A DNA stretch of 38,922 bases from a bacterium (GTDB lineage: Bacteria; Vulcanimicrobiota; Vulcanimicrobiia; Vulcanimicrobiales; Vulcanimicrobiaceae). The DNA is taken from positions 1 through 38,922 of the forward strand of contig JAGWSR010000102.1 of the NCBI GenBank assembly GCA_028869385.1, given 5' to 3'. Within the stretch, counting starts at the first letter, position 1, and the number at the start of each line of letters is the position of its first letter. Below the pieces are notes generated by a model. That model saw only the letters and a program-made list of their open reading frames with translations. It was not told where the DNA came from and searched no databases. This document shows, piece after piece, positions 23,781-29,780 of this stretch. Position numbers and translations under genes: made by a program.

Positions 23781-24779
23781 ATGCTCGAACCGTCAACCAC
23801 CGCCGAACCGCGTCTCGAGTTCGTCAAACTCCCCAGCGCCGCCGCCGAGCACGCCTTCTCGGACGACGTTCGCGCGGGGCTGAGCGCCGCGAGCAAGACG
23901 CTGCCGTCGAAGTATCTCTACGACGATCTCGGCTCGTCGCTCTTCGAAGCGATCACGCATCTGCCGGAGTACTACCTCACCGGCGCCGAGACCGAGATCC
24001 TGCGCGAGTGGGGCTGGGAGATCGTGCGCATGCTCGCGGGTTCGATCGAACTGCTCGAACTCGGCAGCGGAAGCGCGATCAAGACGCGCCTGCTTATCGA
24101 AGAGGCGCTGCGCGTGCAGCCGACGCTACGTTACAGCCCGATCGACATTTCGTTCGACGCCTTGCGCGCGTCTTCGACCGCGCTCGTCGAACGCTACGAA
24201 AAGTTGCACGTCCGCGCGTACGCGGGAGACTACTTTAGCGTCCTCGCATCGCGCGAACTGCGATTCGAACGCCCCGTGCTCGCACTTCTGATGGGATCGA
24301 ACATCGGCAACTACGCGCCCGATGAAGCACGCGCGCTCGTCGAACTCGTCGGGTCGGCCTTGCGACCCGGTGACGGGCTGCTCGTCGGAACCGATCGTAA
24401 GAAAGATCGCGCGACGCTCGAGCGCGCGTACGACGATCCGACCGGCGTGACCGCGGCATTCGACAAGAATCTGCTCGGGCGGATCAATCGCGAACTCGGA
24501 GGCACGTTCGACCTCAAGGCGTTCGATCACGTCGCGCACTACGACGAGGCGCGCGGCTGCGTGGATTCGTTTCTACGCTCGCGCTTCGCGCACCGCGTGC
24601 GGATCGAGGCGCTCGATCTCGAGGTGACGTTCGAGCCCGGCGAGCGCATCCACACCGAATCGTCCTATAAGTTCGACGATCGGGATATCGAACGGCTCGC
24701 CGTCGCGGGCGGTTTTCGTGTGGCGAAGGCGTGGTACGACGCCGGACATCGCTTCGCACTTCACCTGCTCGAGCGATAG
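23781..24779 (+). CDS. egtD: L-histidine N-alpha-methyltransferase, ergothioneine biosynthesis
   Basis: EgtD uses S-adenosylmethionine to trimethylate histidine to hercynine, the betaine precursor of ergothioneine. The 332 residues match the family. Visible features are YDDLGSSLFE, LPEYYLTGAE (Tyr64/65 region), the SAM motif ELGSGSA, GSNIGNY with the substrate-binding Asn174, AYDDPTGVTAAF and TESSYKF with Glu293 and Ser295 (equivalents of Glu282 and Ser284 of the mycobacterial enzyme). The methionine usually found in the EM(R/H)L segment is Ser263 here (VDSFL), so one histidine-contact residue differs. No egtB follows. GGGAGG lies 4 bases before the ATG. Its 3' end overlaps the converging permease gene by 19 bases. 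Confidence 0.94.
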   Translation: MLEPSTTAEPRLEFVKLPSAAAEHAFSDDVRAGLSAASKTLPSKYLYDDLGSSLFEAITHLPEYYLTGAETEILREWGWEIVRMLAGSIELLELGSGSAIKTRLLIEEALRVQPTLRYSPIDISFDALRASSTALVERYEKLHVRAYAGDYFSVLASRELRFERPVLALLMGSNIGNYAPDEARALVELVGSALRPGDGLLVGTDRKKDRATLERAYDDPTGVTAAFDKNLLGRINRELGGTFDLKAFDHVAHYDEARGCVDSFLRSRFAHRVRIEALDLEVTFEPGERIHTESSYKFDDRDIERLAVAGGFRVAKAWYDAGHRFALHLLER

Positions 24780-25384
24780 CTCACGAGGCGCTCGACGCCG
24801 CGCAGCGCGAGGTCGAAGGCGATCGCGAGCGCGCACGCGGCGATGCTCCCCGCGATGATTTCGTCGGGGTGGTGCAATGCGAGGCCGGTGAAGATGAGCG
24901 TCCCGAGTCCGCTCGCGCCGACGTAGCCGCCGAGGGTCGCGAGCGCAACCATGGCGACGGCCGCGATCCGGACGCCGCCCACGATGACCGGCAATGCCAG
25001 CGGAAGTTCGACGCGCGCGAGCACCTGCCGCGCGGTCATGCCCATCGCGATCGCCGCTTCGCGCTCCGCCGCGTCGACGCCGCCGATGCCGGCGGCGACG
25101 TTGCGCACGAGCACGAATTGCGCGTAGGCGACGAGCGCCACAAAGATCGGGAGCGTGCCGAGTCCGAGCGCGGCGACGAGCAGCGCGAGGAGCGCGAGGC
25201 TTGGAATCGTGTACACCGCCCCGAGCGCGCCGAGCAGCAATCCGGCGACGCGTCCGCCGCGCGCGCATCGGATGCCGAGCGGCAACGCGATCGCGAAGGC
25301 GAGCGCGAGCGCGCCGAGTACGAGTTCGACGTGCGCGCCGAGCGCGAGCGCGACGCGCAGCGGATGCGCGGCGAGGTAGCTCAC
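24761..25384 (-). CDS. Osmoprotectant-type ABC transporter permease (OpuC/YehW-like), distal gene
   Basis: This is an inner-membrane permease of 207 residues with about five to six segments. The permease loop motif contacting the ATPase is visible as EREAAIAMGMTARQVLARVELP, shortened here to its core AMGMTARQ. GTG at 25384 overlaps the ATPase stop (GTGA). Together with 25381-26157, 26154-27035 and 27032-27634 it forms a complete importer with two permeases, as in OpuB/OpuC and YehWXYZ. The family imports glycine betaine, choline, carnitine or, in the EgtUV branch, ergothioneine. The substrate here is undetermined; egtD converges on this gene. Confidence 0.92.
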   Translation of the reverse strand: MSYLAAHPLRVALALGAHVELVLGALALAFAIALPLGIRCARGGRVAGLLLGALGAVYTIPSLALLALLVAALGLGTLPIFVALVAYAQFVLVRNVAAGIGGVDAAEREAAIAMGMTARQVLARVELPLALPVIVGGVRIAAVAMVALATLGGYVGASGLGTLIFTGLALHHPDEIIAGSIAACALAIAFDLALRGVERLVSYRSSR

Positions 25385-26157
25385 GGGATGCGCGCCGCCG
25401 CGCGCAACTCGGCAATGGCGTCCTCGGCTTCGAAGAGCTCGCGCACGAATGGCGTGGCCGGATGGTCCACGATTTCGAGCGGTGCCGCGCACTGCTCGAT
25501 CGCACCCGCTCGCATGACGACGATCCGATCCGCGAGTCGCAGCGCTTCGTTTACGTCGTGCGTGACGAAGAGCGTCGTCGTGCCGACCTCGGCCACGATG
25601 CGGCGCAGTTCGCGCTGCAGTTCGCGCCGCACGATCGCGTCGAGCGCGCCGAACGGCTCGTCCATCAGAAGCACGCGCGGCGCCGCCGCGAGCGCGCGCG
25701 CGACGCCGACGCGCTGCGCCTCGCCGCCGGAGAGTTCGCGCGGACGACGGTCGCGATAGCGTACCGGATCGAGGCGCACGAGTTCGAGCATTGCATCGAC
25801 TCGAGCGGCGATGCGCGCGCGGTCCCATCCGAGCAACTCCGGAACGATCGCCACGTTGCGCGCGACGCTCATGTGGCTGAAGAGGCCGGTGGCTTGGATG
25901 GCGTAGCCGATCGAGCGGCGCATGGCGATCGGATCGAGCGAGGCGCTATCGACGCCGTCGAGGTCGATGCGGCCCGCGTCGATCGACGTGAGGCGGTTCA
26001 CCGTGCGCAAGAGCGTCGTCTTGCCGCAGCCCGACGGCCCGACGAGCGCGACGAACTCGCCCGGCGCGATCCGCAGGTCGATCGGTCCGAGCGCGTCGCG
26101 CGACGTTCCCGGATAGCGCACGCGAACGCCCGCGAACGACAGCGAGGCAGCGCTCAT
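25381..26157 (-). CDS. Osmoprotectant-type ABC transporter ATP-binding protein
   Basis: This is the nucleotide-binding subunit, 258 residues. Walker A GPSGCGKTT (about 39-47), the Q-loop AIQATGLF typical of OpuCA/ProV relatives, signature LSGGEAQRVGVARAL, Walker B VLLMDEPFGALD and the switch His in VTHD are all intact. It ends soon after the core domain and lacks the tandem CBS domains of OpuCA, so regulation by ionic strength through CBS is not expected. Its ATG overlaps the stop of the binding-protein gene (ATGA), and its stop overlaps the following permease GTG. Confidence 0.95.
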   Translation of the reverse strand: MSAASLSFAGVRVRYPGTSRDALGPIDLRIAPGEFVALVGPSGCGKTTLLRTVNRLTSIDAGRIDLDGVDSASLDPIAMRRSIGYAIQATGLFSHMSVARNVAIVPELLGWDRARIAARVDAMLELVRLDPVRYRDRRPRELSGGEAQRVGVARALAAAPRVLLMDEPFGALDAIVRRELQRELRRIVAEVGTTTLFVTHDVNEALRLADRIVVMRAGAIEQCAAPLEIVDHPATPFVRELFEAEDAIAELRAAARIP

Positions 26158-27035
26158 CGCGCCTGCGCGGCGAGAAATGCGGCCGCGACGTCGGCGGGAT
26201 CCTTGCGCTCGCCCTCGACCGCCGCGTTCATCCGTTGCGCCGCCGCGCTGGTGATGGCGGGGGCGATCGCATCGAGCGCGTGCGCGATACGCGGTTCGCG
26301 CGCGAGCACCGCGCTGCGCACGATCGGCGCCACGTTATACGCGGGCCACAGGTGGCGATCGTCGTCGAGGAGCACGAGGTGCGCGCTCGCAATCTCGCCG
26401 TCGGTCGTGAAGGCCGTCGCGACGTCGGCCGAGCCGTCGAGCAGGGCTTGATATTTGAGCGCGATGTCATACGTGCGCACGCTCGCGAAGTGGAAGCCGC
26501 CGTAGCGGCGCTGTAAGCCCGGCAGTCCGTCGGGCCGGCTCAGAAACTCGGGAATCGTCGCGAGGCGAAGGCGGGGCGCCGCGAGCGCGAGATCGGAGAG
26601 CGTGCGCAGGCGATAGCGCGCGGCGATCGCCGCCGTCGTCGCGATGCCCTGCGAGTCGTTCATCGGGGACGGAGCGAGCCACGTGATGCCGTACGAACGC
26701 GCGAAGGCCGCGCGCACCGTCTCGTAGATCGCGTGCGGGGAGTCGAGCGGCGCGAGGTGCAGCACGTCGATGAGCGCCGTGCCGGTGTACTCCGGGTAGA
26801 GATCGATATCGCCGCGCGCCATTGCGGCGAGCGCGATCTGCGTGGAGCCGAGGTTGAGGCGCCGCTCCACGGAGAGCCCCGCGCGTTCGAGCGTCTGTGC
26901 GTAGATCTCGGCGATCACGATCGACTCGGTGAAGTTCTTCGATCCGACGCGGATCGTGCCGTTGCGCGCGGAGCAGCGCGCGAGCGCGGGCACCGTCGCG
27001 AGCAGCGCGAGCGCGCGAGCGCGGGAAATGGTCAT
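26154..27035 (-). CDS. Osmoprotectant-type ABC transporter substrate-binding protein
   Basis: This exported binding protein (293 residues, OpuAC/ProX-like) captures the substrate outside the membrane. The N-terminus MTISRARALALLATVPALARC is a Sec signal, possibly a lipobox (ALARC). Family motifs include VGSKNFTES, GSTQIALAAM, LYPEYTGTAL, FTTDGEI and WPAYNVAPIVR. The binding pocket of this family uses aromatic residues to hold trimethylammonium groups, and several Tyr/Trp residues are available here (YPEY, ITWLAP, WPAY), but the cage cannot be assigned without a structure. ATG at 27035 overlaps the upstream permease stop (ATGA). Hercynine and ergothioneine both carry such a group. Confidence 0.92.
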   Translation of the reverse strand: MTISRARALALLATVPALARCSARNGTIRVGSKNFTESIVIAEIYAQTLERAGLSVERRLNLGSTQIALAAMARGDIDLYPEYTGTALIDVLHLAPLDSPHAIYETVRAAFARSYGITWLAPSPMNDSQGIATTAAIAARYRLRTLSDLALAAPRLRLATIPEFLSRPDGLPGLQRRYGGFHFASVRTYDIALKYQALLDGSADVATAFTTDGEIASAHLVLLDDDRHLWPAYNVAPIVRSAVLAREPRIAHALDAIAPAITSAAAQRMNAAVEGERKDPADVAAAFLAAQAR

Positions 27036-27634
27036 GACGTGCGTACCTCGAGTGCGCGCGCGGCGCGCGTAAAGAAGAGTTCGGCGGCGAAGGCCATGGC
27101 GGCGACGGTGATGCTCGCCGCGGCGAGCAGGCGTAGGTCGTCGGTCTGCAGCGCGCGCACGATGTCGTCTCCCAAACCGCCCGCACCGATGAAGGTGGCG
27201 AGCGTCGCGCTCGCGATCACCTCGACGCTCGCGGTGCGGACGCCGGCGAGCGCGACCGGCAGGGCGAGCGGTGCGACGACGCGTCCGAAGCGCTGGCGCG
27301 CATTCATGCCGAGCCCGGTCGCGGCGTCGATCGCGGCGGGGGCGACCCCGCGAATGCCGAGGTCCACGTTCACCACGATCGGGGGCAGCGCGAGAACGAC
27401 GAGCGCGACGAGCGCCGGAGCCGTCCCGACGCCGAGCACCGGGAGCAGCAAAGCAAGCAGCGCTATGCTCGGAATCGTGCGCCCGACGGCCGCGACCGCG
27501 AGGAGCGGCGCGCGCAGGGCCGGGCGATGCGCGCCGAGCGCGGCGAGCGGTGCGCCCACGAGGATCGCGAGTGCGAGCGCCTCGCCGCAGAGCAGCGCGT
27601 GTCGCCCGGCGTGCTGGAGGATGCTCGCCCACAT
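27032..27634 (-). CDS. Osmoprotectant-type ABC transporter permease, proximal gene
   Basis: This inner-membrane permease (200 residues from ATG at 27634) is the first gene of the importer operon. The ATPase-contact loop contains ATGLGMNARQRFGRV, and helix-rich hydrophobic segments fill the rest. A GTG at 27652 would add six residues. It is paralogous to the distal permease 24761-25384, as expected for a two-permease OpuB/OpuC-type system. Only 40 bases separate it from the divergent ppk gene, and this region holds a perfect DnaA-box sequence. Confidence 0.92.
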   Translation of the reverse strand: MWASILQHAGRHALLCGEALALAILVGAPLAALGAHRPALRAPLLAVAAVGRTIPSIALLALLLPVLGVGTAPALVALVVLALPPIVVNVDLGIRGVAPAAIDAATGLGMNARQRFGRVVAPLALPVALAGVRTASVEVIASATLATFIGAGGLGDDIVRALQTDDLRLLAAASITVAAMAFAAELFFTRAARALEVRTS

Positions 27635-27644
27635 GACGAGAGAT

Positions 27645-27653
27645 TTATCCACA
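27645..27653 (+). promoter_or_regulatory. Perfect DnaA-box sequence in the importer/ppk divergent region
   Basis: TTATCCACA matches the high-affinity DnaA box of E. coli exactly and lies in the 40-base space between the importer operon and ppk. With about two-thirds G+C, such an A+T-rich 9-mer is expected well under once in this window by chance. A single box is not an origin. It may be a DnaA-responsive promoter site or coincidence. Confidence 0.4.
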
Positions 27654-27674: not shown

Positions 27675-29780
27675 ATGCTCTCGCATGAGTCCGTCGCGTC
27701 CGCTCCCGCACCCGTCTCGTTGGACGATGCCTCGCTCTACTTCAGCCGCGAGCTCTCGTGGCTCGAGTTCAACGACCGCGTGCTCGAGGAGGCGCTCGAC
27801 GCGCGCAATCCGCTCTTCGAACGCCTGAAATTCGTCGCGATCTACGGCAACAATCTCGACGAGTTCTTCATGATTCGCGTGGCGGCGATCAAACAGCAGA
27901 TCGAGGCGCAGGTCGTGCGCCGCTCCGAGGACGGACGGCTGCCCGCCGAGCATCTGGCGGCGATCTCGGAGCGTCTGCGACGCTCGCTCGCACTCCAGAT
28001 GCGCGTCCTCAACGAAGAGCTGCTCCCCGCGCTCGAGACGCACGGCATCCGCATTCTCGCGGTCGCCGATCTCGACGAAGCCACCCAGAGTGCGCTCGAA
28101 CGCACCTTCGACGACCGCCTCTTTCCGGTGCTCACCCCGCTTGCCGTGGATGCGGGGCATCCGTTTCCGTATATCTCGAATCTCTCGCTCTCGCTCGCGG
28201 TCGAGCTCGAAGAGCCGACGGCCGAAGGCGTGGAGCTGCACTTCGCGCGCGTCAAGATTCCGCCGATCATCCCGCGCTTCATCGCGATCGAAGGCGCCCC
28301 CGAGGGCGAGCGCCACTTTGTGCTCCTCGAAGATCTGATCGCGCATCATCTCGACGGGCTCTTCCCCGGGATGAAGGTGCGCGACGCGTATCTCTTCCGC
28401 GTCACGCGCGACGCCGACCTCGACCTGCAAGAGGATGAGGCCGACGATCTCCTGCGCGCGATCGAATCGGAGCTGCAGCGCCGTCGCTTCGGCGAGCCCG
28501 TGCGTTTGGAGATCGAGCGCGGCATGCCCGAGTACATGCGCGACTTTCTCTTGCGCTCGCTCGATCTCTCCGAAGTGGATTGCTACGAGACCGACGGCAT
28601 CGTCGCCCTCTCGGATCTCTGGCAACTGATCGGCCTGCCCGATTACGAAGCGTTGCGCGACGAACCGTTCATGCCGACGATCCCGCGACCGCTGCTCGGC
28701 AAGAGCGATCTCTTCGCGCAGATTCGCGAAGGCGACGTACTGCTGCATCATCCGTACGACTCGTTCGATCCGGTGGTGCAGTTCGTGCAGCAAGCCGCGG
28801 AAGATCCGGACGTGCTCGCGATCAAGGCGACGCTCTATCGCACCTCCGGAAAAAATTCGCCGATCGTGCGTGCGCTGCTGCACGCCGCCGAGAACGAGAA
28901 GCAGGTCGCGGTCGTGATCGAACTCAAGGCGCGCTTCGACGAAGAGAACAACATCGAATGGGCGCGACGCCTCGAACGCGCGGGCGTGCACGTGGTGTAC
29001 GGATTCCCGGGTCAGAAGGTGCACGCGAAGACGATGCTCGTCGTGCGGCGCGAAGAGGACGGCATTCGCCGCTACATGCACTTCGGTACCGGCAACTACA
29101 ACGAAAAGACCGCGCGCTTCTACACCGATTTAAGCCTCTTCACGTGTCGGCGCGAACTCGGCGCCGACGTGACGCAACTCTTCAACGCGCTTACCGGCTT
29201 CTCGAAGATCACCGATTACGAGGATCTTCTGGTGGCGCCCGTCACGCTGCGCCGCGAGATGCTCGCGCTCATCGAGCGCGAGACCGAGCACGCACGCGAG
29301 GGGCGTCCGGCGGGCATCCGCGCCAAGCTCAACGCGCTCACCGACGGCGAGATCGTGCGCGCGCTCTACCGCGCCTCGCAGGCTGGCGTGCCGATCGACC
29401 TGCTCGTGCGCGGGATGTGCGTGTTGCGTCCGGGGCTGCCCGGGGTGAGCGAGACGATCCGCGTGCGCAGCATCGTGGGACGCTTTCTCGAGCACTCGCG
29501 CATCTACGTGTTCGAAAACGGCGGCGAACGCGAGCTCTACATCTCGAGCGCCGACTGGATGGGGCGCAACCTCGACCGTCGCGTGGAACTCGCCGTCCCC
29601 GTGCTCGACCCGGTGATCGCGGAGAGCGTCAACAGCCAGATTCTGAGCGTGCTCGCGAGCGACAACGTCAAGATGCGCGAGCTCATGCCCGACGGTTCCT
29701 ACAAACGTCGCGGTCGCCGACCCGACGAGATGCCCGTCAACGCCCAGCGGATCTTCCTCACCCAGGCTCAAGCCGTCTAG
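27675..29780 (+). CDS. ppk: Polyphosphate kinase 1
   Basis: PPK1 reversibly makes long-chain polyphosphate from ATP. The 701 residues match the family. The N-terminal domain starts with YFSRELSWLEFN and NNLDEFFMIRVA. The catalytic histidine is His450 in KVHAKTMLV, followed by HFGTGNYNEKTARFYTDLS, which includes the second conserved histidine. The C-terminal phospholipase-D-like domain ends with SADWMGRNLDRRVE. The ATG at 27675 precedes MLSHESV; GGAG lies 12 bases upstream, which is long. The reading frame continues upstream, antisense to the importer, but that part is not coding. Polyphosphate may link to the phosphodiesterases at 33777-36508. Confidence 0.97.
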   Translation: MLSHESVASAPAPVSLDDASLYFSRELSWLEFNDRVLEEALDARNPLFERLKFVAIYGNNLDEFFMIRVAAIKQQIEAQVVRRSEDGRLPAEHLAAISERLRRSLALQMRVLNEELLPALETHGIRILAVADLDEATQSALERTFDDRLFPVLTPLAVDAGHPFPYISNLSLSLAVELEEPTAEGVELHFARVKIPPIIPRFIAIEGAPEGERHFVLLEDLIAHHLDGLFPGMKVRDAYLFRVTRDADLDLQEDEADDLLRAIESELQRRRFGEPVRLEIERGMPEYMRDFLLRSLDLSEVDCYETDGIVALSDLWQLIGLPDYEALRDEPFMPTIPRPLLGKSDLFAQIREGDVLLHHPYDSFDPVVQFVQQAAEDPDVLAIKATLYRTSGKNSPIVRALLHAAENEKQVAVVIELKARFDEENNIEWARRLERAGVHVVYGFPGQKVHAKTMLVVRREEDGIRRYMHFGTGNYNEKTARFYTDLSLFTCRRELGADVTQLFNALTGFSKITDYEDLLVAPVTLRREMLALIERETEHAREGRPAGIRAKLNALTDGEIVRALYRASQAGVPIDLLVRGMCVLRPGLPGVSETIRVRSIVGRFLEHSRIYVFENGGERELYISSADWMGRNLDRRVELAVPVLDPVIAESVNSQILSVLASDNVKMRELMPDGSYKRRGRRPDEMPVNAQRIFLTQAQAV

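Follow-up and report, generated by a model that had tools for sequence, protein, structure and literature searches.

The stretch of DNA analysed here (38,922 nucleotides, hereafter the window) belongs to a member of Candidatus Eremiobacterota, a little-known phylum of soil bacteria, and carries an egtD gene that converges on a complete four-gene ABC importer operon. With moderate confidence, we propose that EgtD is a working hercynine synthase and that the importer takes up a carboxylated quaternary ammonium compound (a betaine), the ligand class being deduced from pocket residues and homology. Judged from its sequence, the importer would be a new, uncharacterised variant of the F-III betaine importers with a conserved link to egtD. 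The following features were distinguished in this region:

23781-24779, plus strand: egtD, L-histidine N-alpha-methyltransferase (makes hercynine), 332 aa (TIGR03438, PF10017)
24761-24779: 19-base overlap of the convergent 3' ends (egtD stop codon 24777-24779, permease 1 stop codon 24761-24763)
24761-25384, minus strand: permease 1, last gene of the operon, 207 aa (PF00528), ProW/ChoW-like, below the equivalog cut-offs
25381-26157, minus strand: importer ATPase, 258 aa (PF00005), best NCBIfam match the proV subfamily, covering the ABC part only
26154-27035, minus strand: substrate-binding protein, lipoprotein-like, OpuAC family, subcluster F-III, 293 aa (PF04069)
27032-27634, minus strand: permease 2, first gene of the operon (PF00528), with an alternative GTG start at 27652
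27675-29780, plus strand: ppk, divergent neighbour of the importer in the window's family (f1), a backbone gene outside the proposed unit

The egtD gene and the importer operon

The original prediction of a full egtD gene was confirmed, as the encoded protein exceeds the cut-off of the TIGR03438 EgtD equivalog in a profile search (313.4 versus 290.9 bits). Of the 12 residues which we take to form the substrate and SAM sites of Mycobacterium smegmatis EgtD, 11 are identical in the window's protein (Y39, F47, Y56, G86, D141, G161, N166, Y206, T213, E282 and S284). The differences from the mycobacterial system are the replacement of M252 by Ser and the location of the gene outside any egtABCDE cluster. 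In four relatives, a gene of the Peptidase C26 (gamma-glutamyl hydrolase) family is placed just 3' of egtD on the same strand, and it is possible that its product could replace EgtC:

L110, 5682-6434, minus strand: Peptidase C26 gene
L113, 3477-4184, plus strand: Peptidase C26 gene
L115, 3336-4088, plus strand: Peptidase C26 gene
L118, 5000-5749, plus strand: Peptidase C26 gene

The importer operon (27634-24761, minus strand) has the predicted OpuC-type composition (permease, ATPase, binding protein and permease, all encoded on one strand). Consecutive genes overlap by 4 bases, which argues that the four genes form one translationally coupled operon, and the stop-codon coordinates agree exactly with the predicted 19-base overlap between egtD and the importer. 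In a domain search the ATPase matched only ABC_tran and a generic AAA profile; CBS domains were not detected, as had been claimed. The further argument that their absence speaks against osmotic control carries little weight: the binding protein is the only PF04069 protein of the host genome, so that import of betaines in general is no less open than import of ergothioneine.

The binding protein matches PF04069 with 216.9 bits. Its Cys21 is invariant in an alignment of nine family sequences, which suggests that it is a lipoprotein. The nearest solved structures are sensors derived from OpuBC, followed by EgtUC and ProX. The predicted model has the F-III fold throughout (mean pLDDT of 85, TM of about 0.8 to the F-III group), although the fold search does not resolve subfamilies.

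Conservation of the egtD-importer pair

The egtD and binding-protein genes were found in convergent orientation, at most 8 kb apart on one contig, in about 87 genomes of three families and two orders (72 genomes of f1, 4 of f2 and 11 of f3, counted by hand from coordinates). The comparison of gene order proposed originally thus revealed an adjacency that is conserved in relatives and that, in a second order of this class, has outlasted the arrangement of the genes around it. Only one genome (G057) carries both genes on one contig but far from each other. On its contig C40 (L119, L120 and L229) the importer is missing between egtD and ppk, and a diverged importer, with Glu at position 129 of the binding protein, lies 70 kb from egtD. 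Both genes are jointly absent from G003, G119 and G120, the first of which also lacks an EgtB-like gene. In genus g35 and family f14, the vicinity of egtD contains no such importer; its neighbour there is an EgtB-like gene.

It is plausible, at a probability somewhat below even, that the pair has no functional link and simply occupies a slowly rearranging stretch of the chromosome, an explanation that is compatible with the betaine importer proposed above. Within f1, 15-18 of 18 loci retain a backbone composed of g18297-glk-GT-FAhx-LT-egtD-importer-ppk, in which unrelated genes are conserved too; for the stretch from glk to ppk the figure is 16-18 of 18. The pairing inside this family is therefore weak evidence of function. 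In many genera, 1-6 kb of unrelated genes, among which no single theme was found, separate egtD from permease 1; moreover, the two partners are encoded on opposite strands and hence share no transcript. The situation is different in f3, which belongs to the other order: near the pair, ppk, GT, LT, glk and EVE have disappeared, whereas the pair itself is present at all 11 loci examined. In f2 the pair is still intact after a move of ppk to the opposite flank, beyond egtD.

The background was determined by setting 597 kb of sequence from an f3 genome against 819 kb from an f1 genome. Of 30 convergent junctions that had one or more reciprocal best hits, two (approximately 7%) were conserved by direct adjacency between the orders, a low rate that argues against synteny as the whole explanation. 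One of the two is glk-GT, which has no ergothioneine link and also reaches f3 after parting from egtD. The survival of the egtD-importer junction exceeds expectation, yet it is not unique and is only somewhat above this background. The pairing is one ancient event observed many times, not 87 independent events. The backbone test led us to discard synteny within f1 as proof of function; the findings in the other order reinstated it in part.

The binding pocket

In the family alignment, the pocket residues K33, F35, Y83, T86, D127, Q129, E163, R167, D169, F209 and Y233 are nearly fixed, and those that bind the betaine carboxylate in AfProX and EgtU are kept in almost every sequence. Two positions distinguish the family:

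26649-26651, minus strand: codon of Q129, replacing the cage residue Tyr111 of AfProX and Tyr341 of EgtU
26931-26933, minus strand: codon of F35, replacing Gly244 of EgtU (Ser in Helicobacter pylori EgtU)

Among 51 aligned family sequences, position 129 is occupied by Gln in 49 and by Glu in two, and position 35 is Phe in 50, the remaining sequence being frame-broken.

The protein shares with AfProX, OpuC and OpuB its fold and with AfProX (whose sequence was checked against the PDB) the equivalents of K13, T66, E145, R149, F15, Y63 and Y214, but Tyr111 is replaced by Gln and Tyr190 by Phe; PDB entry 3mam has Ala at the Tyr111 position. Instead of the four-aromatic cage of F-III betaine binders, the pocket thus contains three aromatic residues and Gln129. 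The ProX protein of M. tuberculosis, which is devoid of cage aromatics, does not bind betaine, choline or carnitine (PMC5894108). The top NCBIfam match is OsmF/YehZ, with a score (154 bits) well short of the 400 bits required for OsmF.

The comparison with the ergothioneine importers EgtU/EgtUBC of Streptococcus pneumoniae and EgtU of H. pylori revealed a common PF04069 domain, the F-III fold (TM of about 0.8), and conservation of the carboxylate-binding Lys, Thr and Arg and of the E375-type Glu (K242, T296, R379 and E375 of EgtU correspond to K33, T86, R167 and E163). In contrast to S. pneumoniae EgtU, which is fused to a permease, the window's binding protein is separate and lipoprotein-like. 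Its family carries Phe in place of Gly/Ser244, Tyr in place of Phe293 (also Tyr in H. pylori), Met or Phe in place of Tyr337 and Gln in place of Tyr341; the F293/Y337 switch of EgtU is replaced by Tyr83 and Met125. Of positions 244 and 293, the two solved EgtU proteins agree only in having a small residue at 244 (for H. pylori, a comparison of one segment), and Phe35 stands there in the window's protein. The G244F substitution weakens ergothioneine binding by EgtU about 100-fold, and F293Y and Y419F cause smaller losses of affinity (PMC9732360); all three weakening states occur naturally in the window's protein, as F35, Y83 and F209. The EgtU-type identity was consequently not upheld, and membership of EgtU was rejected on the residues F35, Y83, M125 and Q129 in place of G244, F293, Y337 and Y341 (PMC9732360).

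Phylogeny and relatives of the binding protein

In the phylogenetic tree, which leaves out EgtU, the window's protein groups with proteins of Bacillota, Spirochaetes, Chloroflexi, Clostridium and Vampirovibrio, most of which also have Gln129. A 100/95 split parts this clade from ProX (AfProX), OpuB (OpuBC), OpuC and the importers linked to ergothionase-like lyases. The tree thus places the protein apart from characterised glycine betaine and choline binders. Of the two observations named in advance as speaking against the original prediction, tight clustering with such binders and absence of the adjacency from all relatives, neither was made. Searches of the literature retrieved no member of the clade with a measured ligand, and nothing that joined Eremiobacterota with ergothioneine.

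In a Treponema locus (L205, 5953-10493), a gene for a 317-aa 4Fe-4S protein is inserted between those of the binding protein and the ATPase, with an O-acetylhomoserine sulfhydrylase gene downstream; similar gaps occur in L204, L207, L209 and L210. These Spirochaete neighbours hint at a sulfur-containing substrate.

Importers that are 40-47% identical to the window's are encoded in Burkholderiales MAGs (L206 and L213), Martelella and Rhizobium together with a histidine-ammonia-lyase-like enzyme. These enzymes lack the MIO (Ala-Ser-Gly) motif, and the one that was tested (L206) has ergothionase as its best PDB match (2e-79). The lyase genes located within OpuC-type importer operons are:

L206, 1418-2932: MIO-less ergothionase-like lyase
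L213, 3793-5304: MIO-less ergothionase-like lyase
L233, 3363-4874: MIO-less ergothionase-like lyase
L234, 4321-5826: MIO-less ergothionase-like lyase

Those in the two plasmid records are annotated as hutH despite the missing motif. A Klebsiella plasmid (L237, 468-5338) carries the genes of an OsmVWXY-like importer and, after them, one for a histidine-ammonia-lyase-like enzyme. The linkage to MIO-less lyases suggests that the importers of the Burkholderiales, Martelella and Rhizobium, closely related to the window's, take up ergothioneine or a different trimethylated histidine. These importers share the transporter type and F35 with the window's protein, but retain Tyr at position 129, show no link to egtD and lie across the 100/95 split, so that they provide a hint, not proof, regarding the window's importer. 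The only histidine-ammonia-lyase-like gene of the host has an intact ASG motif, which identifies it as a normal hutH; a search of the host genome yielded no ergothionase-like gene. A catabolic model, with import serving an ergothionase, was rejected on these grounds.

Possible salvage of histidine betaines

The original prediction of ergothioneine or hercynine import survives as a minority hypothesis: the adjacency is conserved and the binding protein stands apart from the glycine betaine and choline binders, but its pocket is not of the EgtU type. In its present form, the importer would be the phylum's own importer of ergothioneine, hercynine or selenoneine, with a non-EgtU pocket, recovering leaked or environmental histidine betaines, and the two loci would stay together since both feed one pool. 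We regard this as unlikely, though it has several observations in its favour, namely (i) the close pairing across three families, (ii) its persistence in f3 without the backbone and in f2 after the move of ppk, set against the low background between the orders, (iii) the joint absence of both genes from three genomes, one of them also without an EgtB-like gene, (iv) the operons shared by proteobacterial cousins with MIO-less lyases, and (v) the retention of E163 (E375 in EgtU) and R167. Against it stand F35, where both solved EgtU proteins have Gly or Ser, together with the affinity losses described for the residues found here; the placement of the lyase-linked proteins on the other side of the split; the lack of egtD in 10 of the 13 genomes that encode importer relatives; and the occurrence of egtD beside an EgtB-like gene in g35 and f14 with no such importer nearby. 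A more specific proposal, similarly unlikely, is that the importer represents a second type within the ergothioneine family, distinguished from EgtU by its pocket of three aromatic residues and a Gln, and serving producers rather than scavengers. If true, the importer would return ergothioneine, hercynine or selenoneine to organisms producing the sulfur compound as well as its selenium counterpart.

Ergothioneine and selenoneine genes of the host

No egtB-like gene was found in the 20-31.5 kb part of the window around egtD or among the flanking gene calls, so that the absence of a nearby egtB holds locally; genome-wide it does not, as EgtB/SenA homologues are present on contigs C39 and C148. 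Contig C39 carries a complete senB-senA-senC selenoneine cluster (L074, 9683-12960), whose SenA and SenB score above their cut-offs (497 versus 420 and 354 versus 300 bits, respectively), with SelD/SenC adjacent. This cluster has no adjoining egtD, and its hercynine would need to come from the window's egtD. Contig C148 encodes a 421-aa sulfoxide synthase with EgtB-IV (8vih) as its best PDB match; it matches OvoA and EgtB profiles, and the GH and HxxxH iron-binding histidine motifs are visible in the alignment, although its score against EgtB TIGR03440 (195 bits) is below the equivalog cut-off of 360. In genus g35 its orthologue is arranged head to head with egtD, with approximately 90-120 bases between them, which ties this type of enzyme to hercynine. 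EgtD and EgtB-like matches are present in 96 and 93 of the 99 genomes of the window's family, respectively.

It is most likely that the hercynine made by EgtD is turned into ergothioneine and selenoneine. The suggestion that hercynine is instead an end product, recaptured by the importer, would fit the lack of an egtB adjoining egtD in the host, but is very improbable given the EgtB-IV/OvoA-like synthase and the complete sen cluster in the same genome and the EgtB-like genes throughout the family, and was rejected once these genes turned up.

Proposed function and significance

In the betaine importer model that we favour, hercynine would be used elsewhere in the cell, by the EgtB-IV/OvoA-like synthase to yield ergothioneine and by SenA to yield selenoneine. 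The membrane-anchored binding protein would clamp the carboxylate of its ligand through K33, T86 and R167, hold the trimethylammonium group in a three-aromatic cage (Y83, F209 and Y233) complemented by Q129 and W230, and deliver the ligand to the ATPase and its two permeases. The egtD gene and the importer would be kept together mainly by inheritance and probably partly by selection. A general betaine role fits the single PF04069 protein of the genome and the importer relatives that occur without egtD. Two observations speak against this reading: a betaine binder that lacks one of its cage tyrosines is unusual, and the link to egtD outlives the backbone in the other order, which a purely generic osmolyte importer leaves unexplained.

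A producer phylum thus pairs egtD with an importer of an uncharacterised clade that has a nearly invariant, unusual pocket, and carries selenoneine genes in the same genome. This bears on whether ergothioneine makers also import ergothioneine, and on the cargo of those F-III binding proteins that belong to no characterised group. The identity of the ligand would extend to the relatives in Spirochaetes, Clostridium and Chloroflexi.
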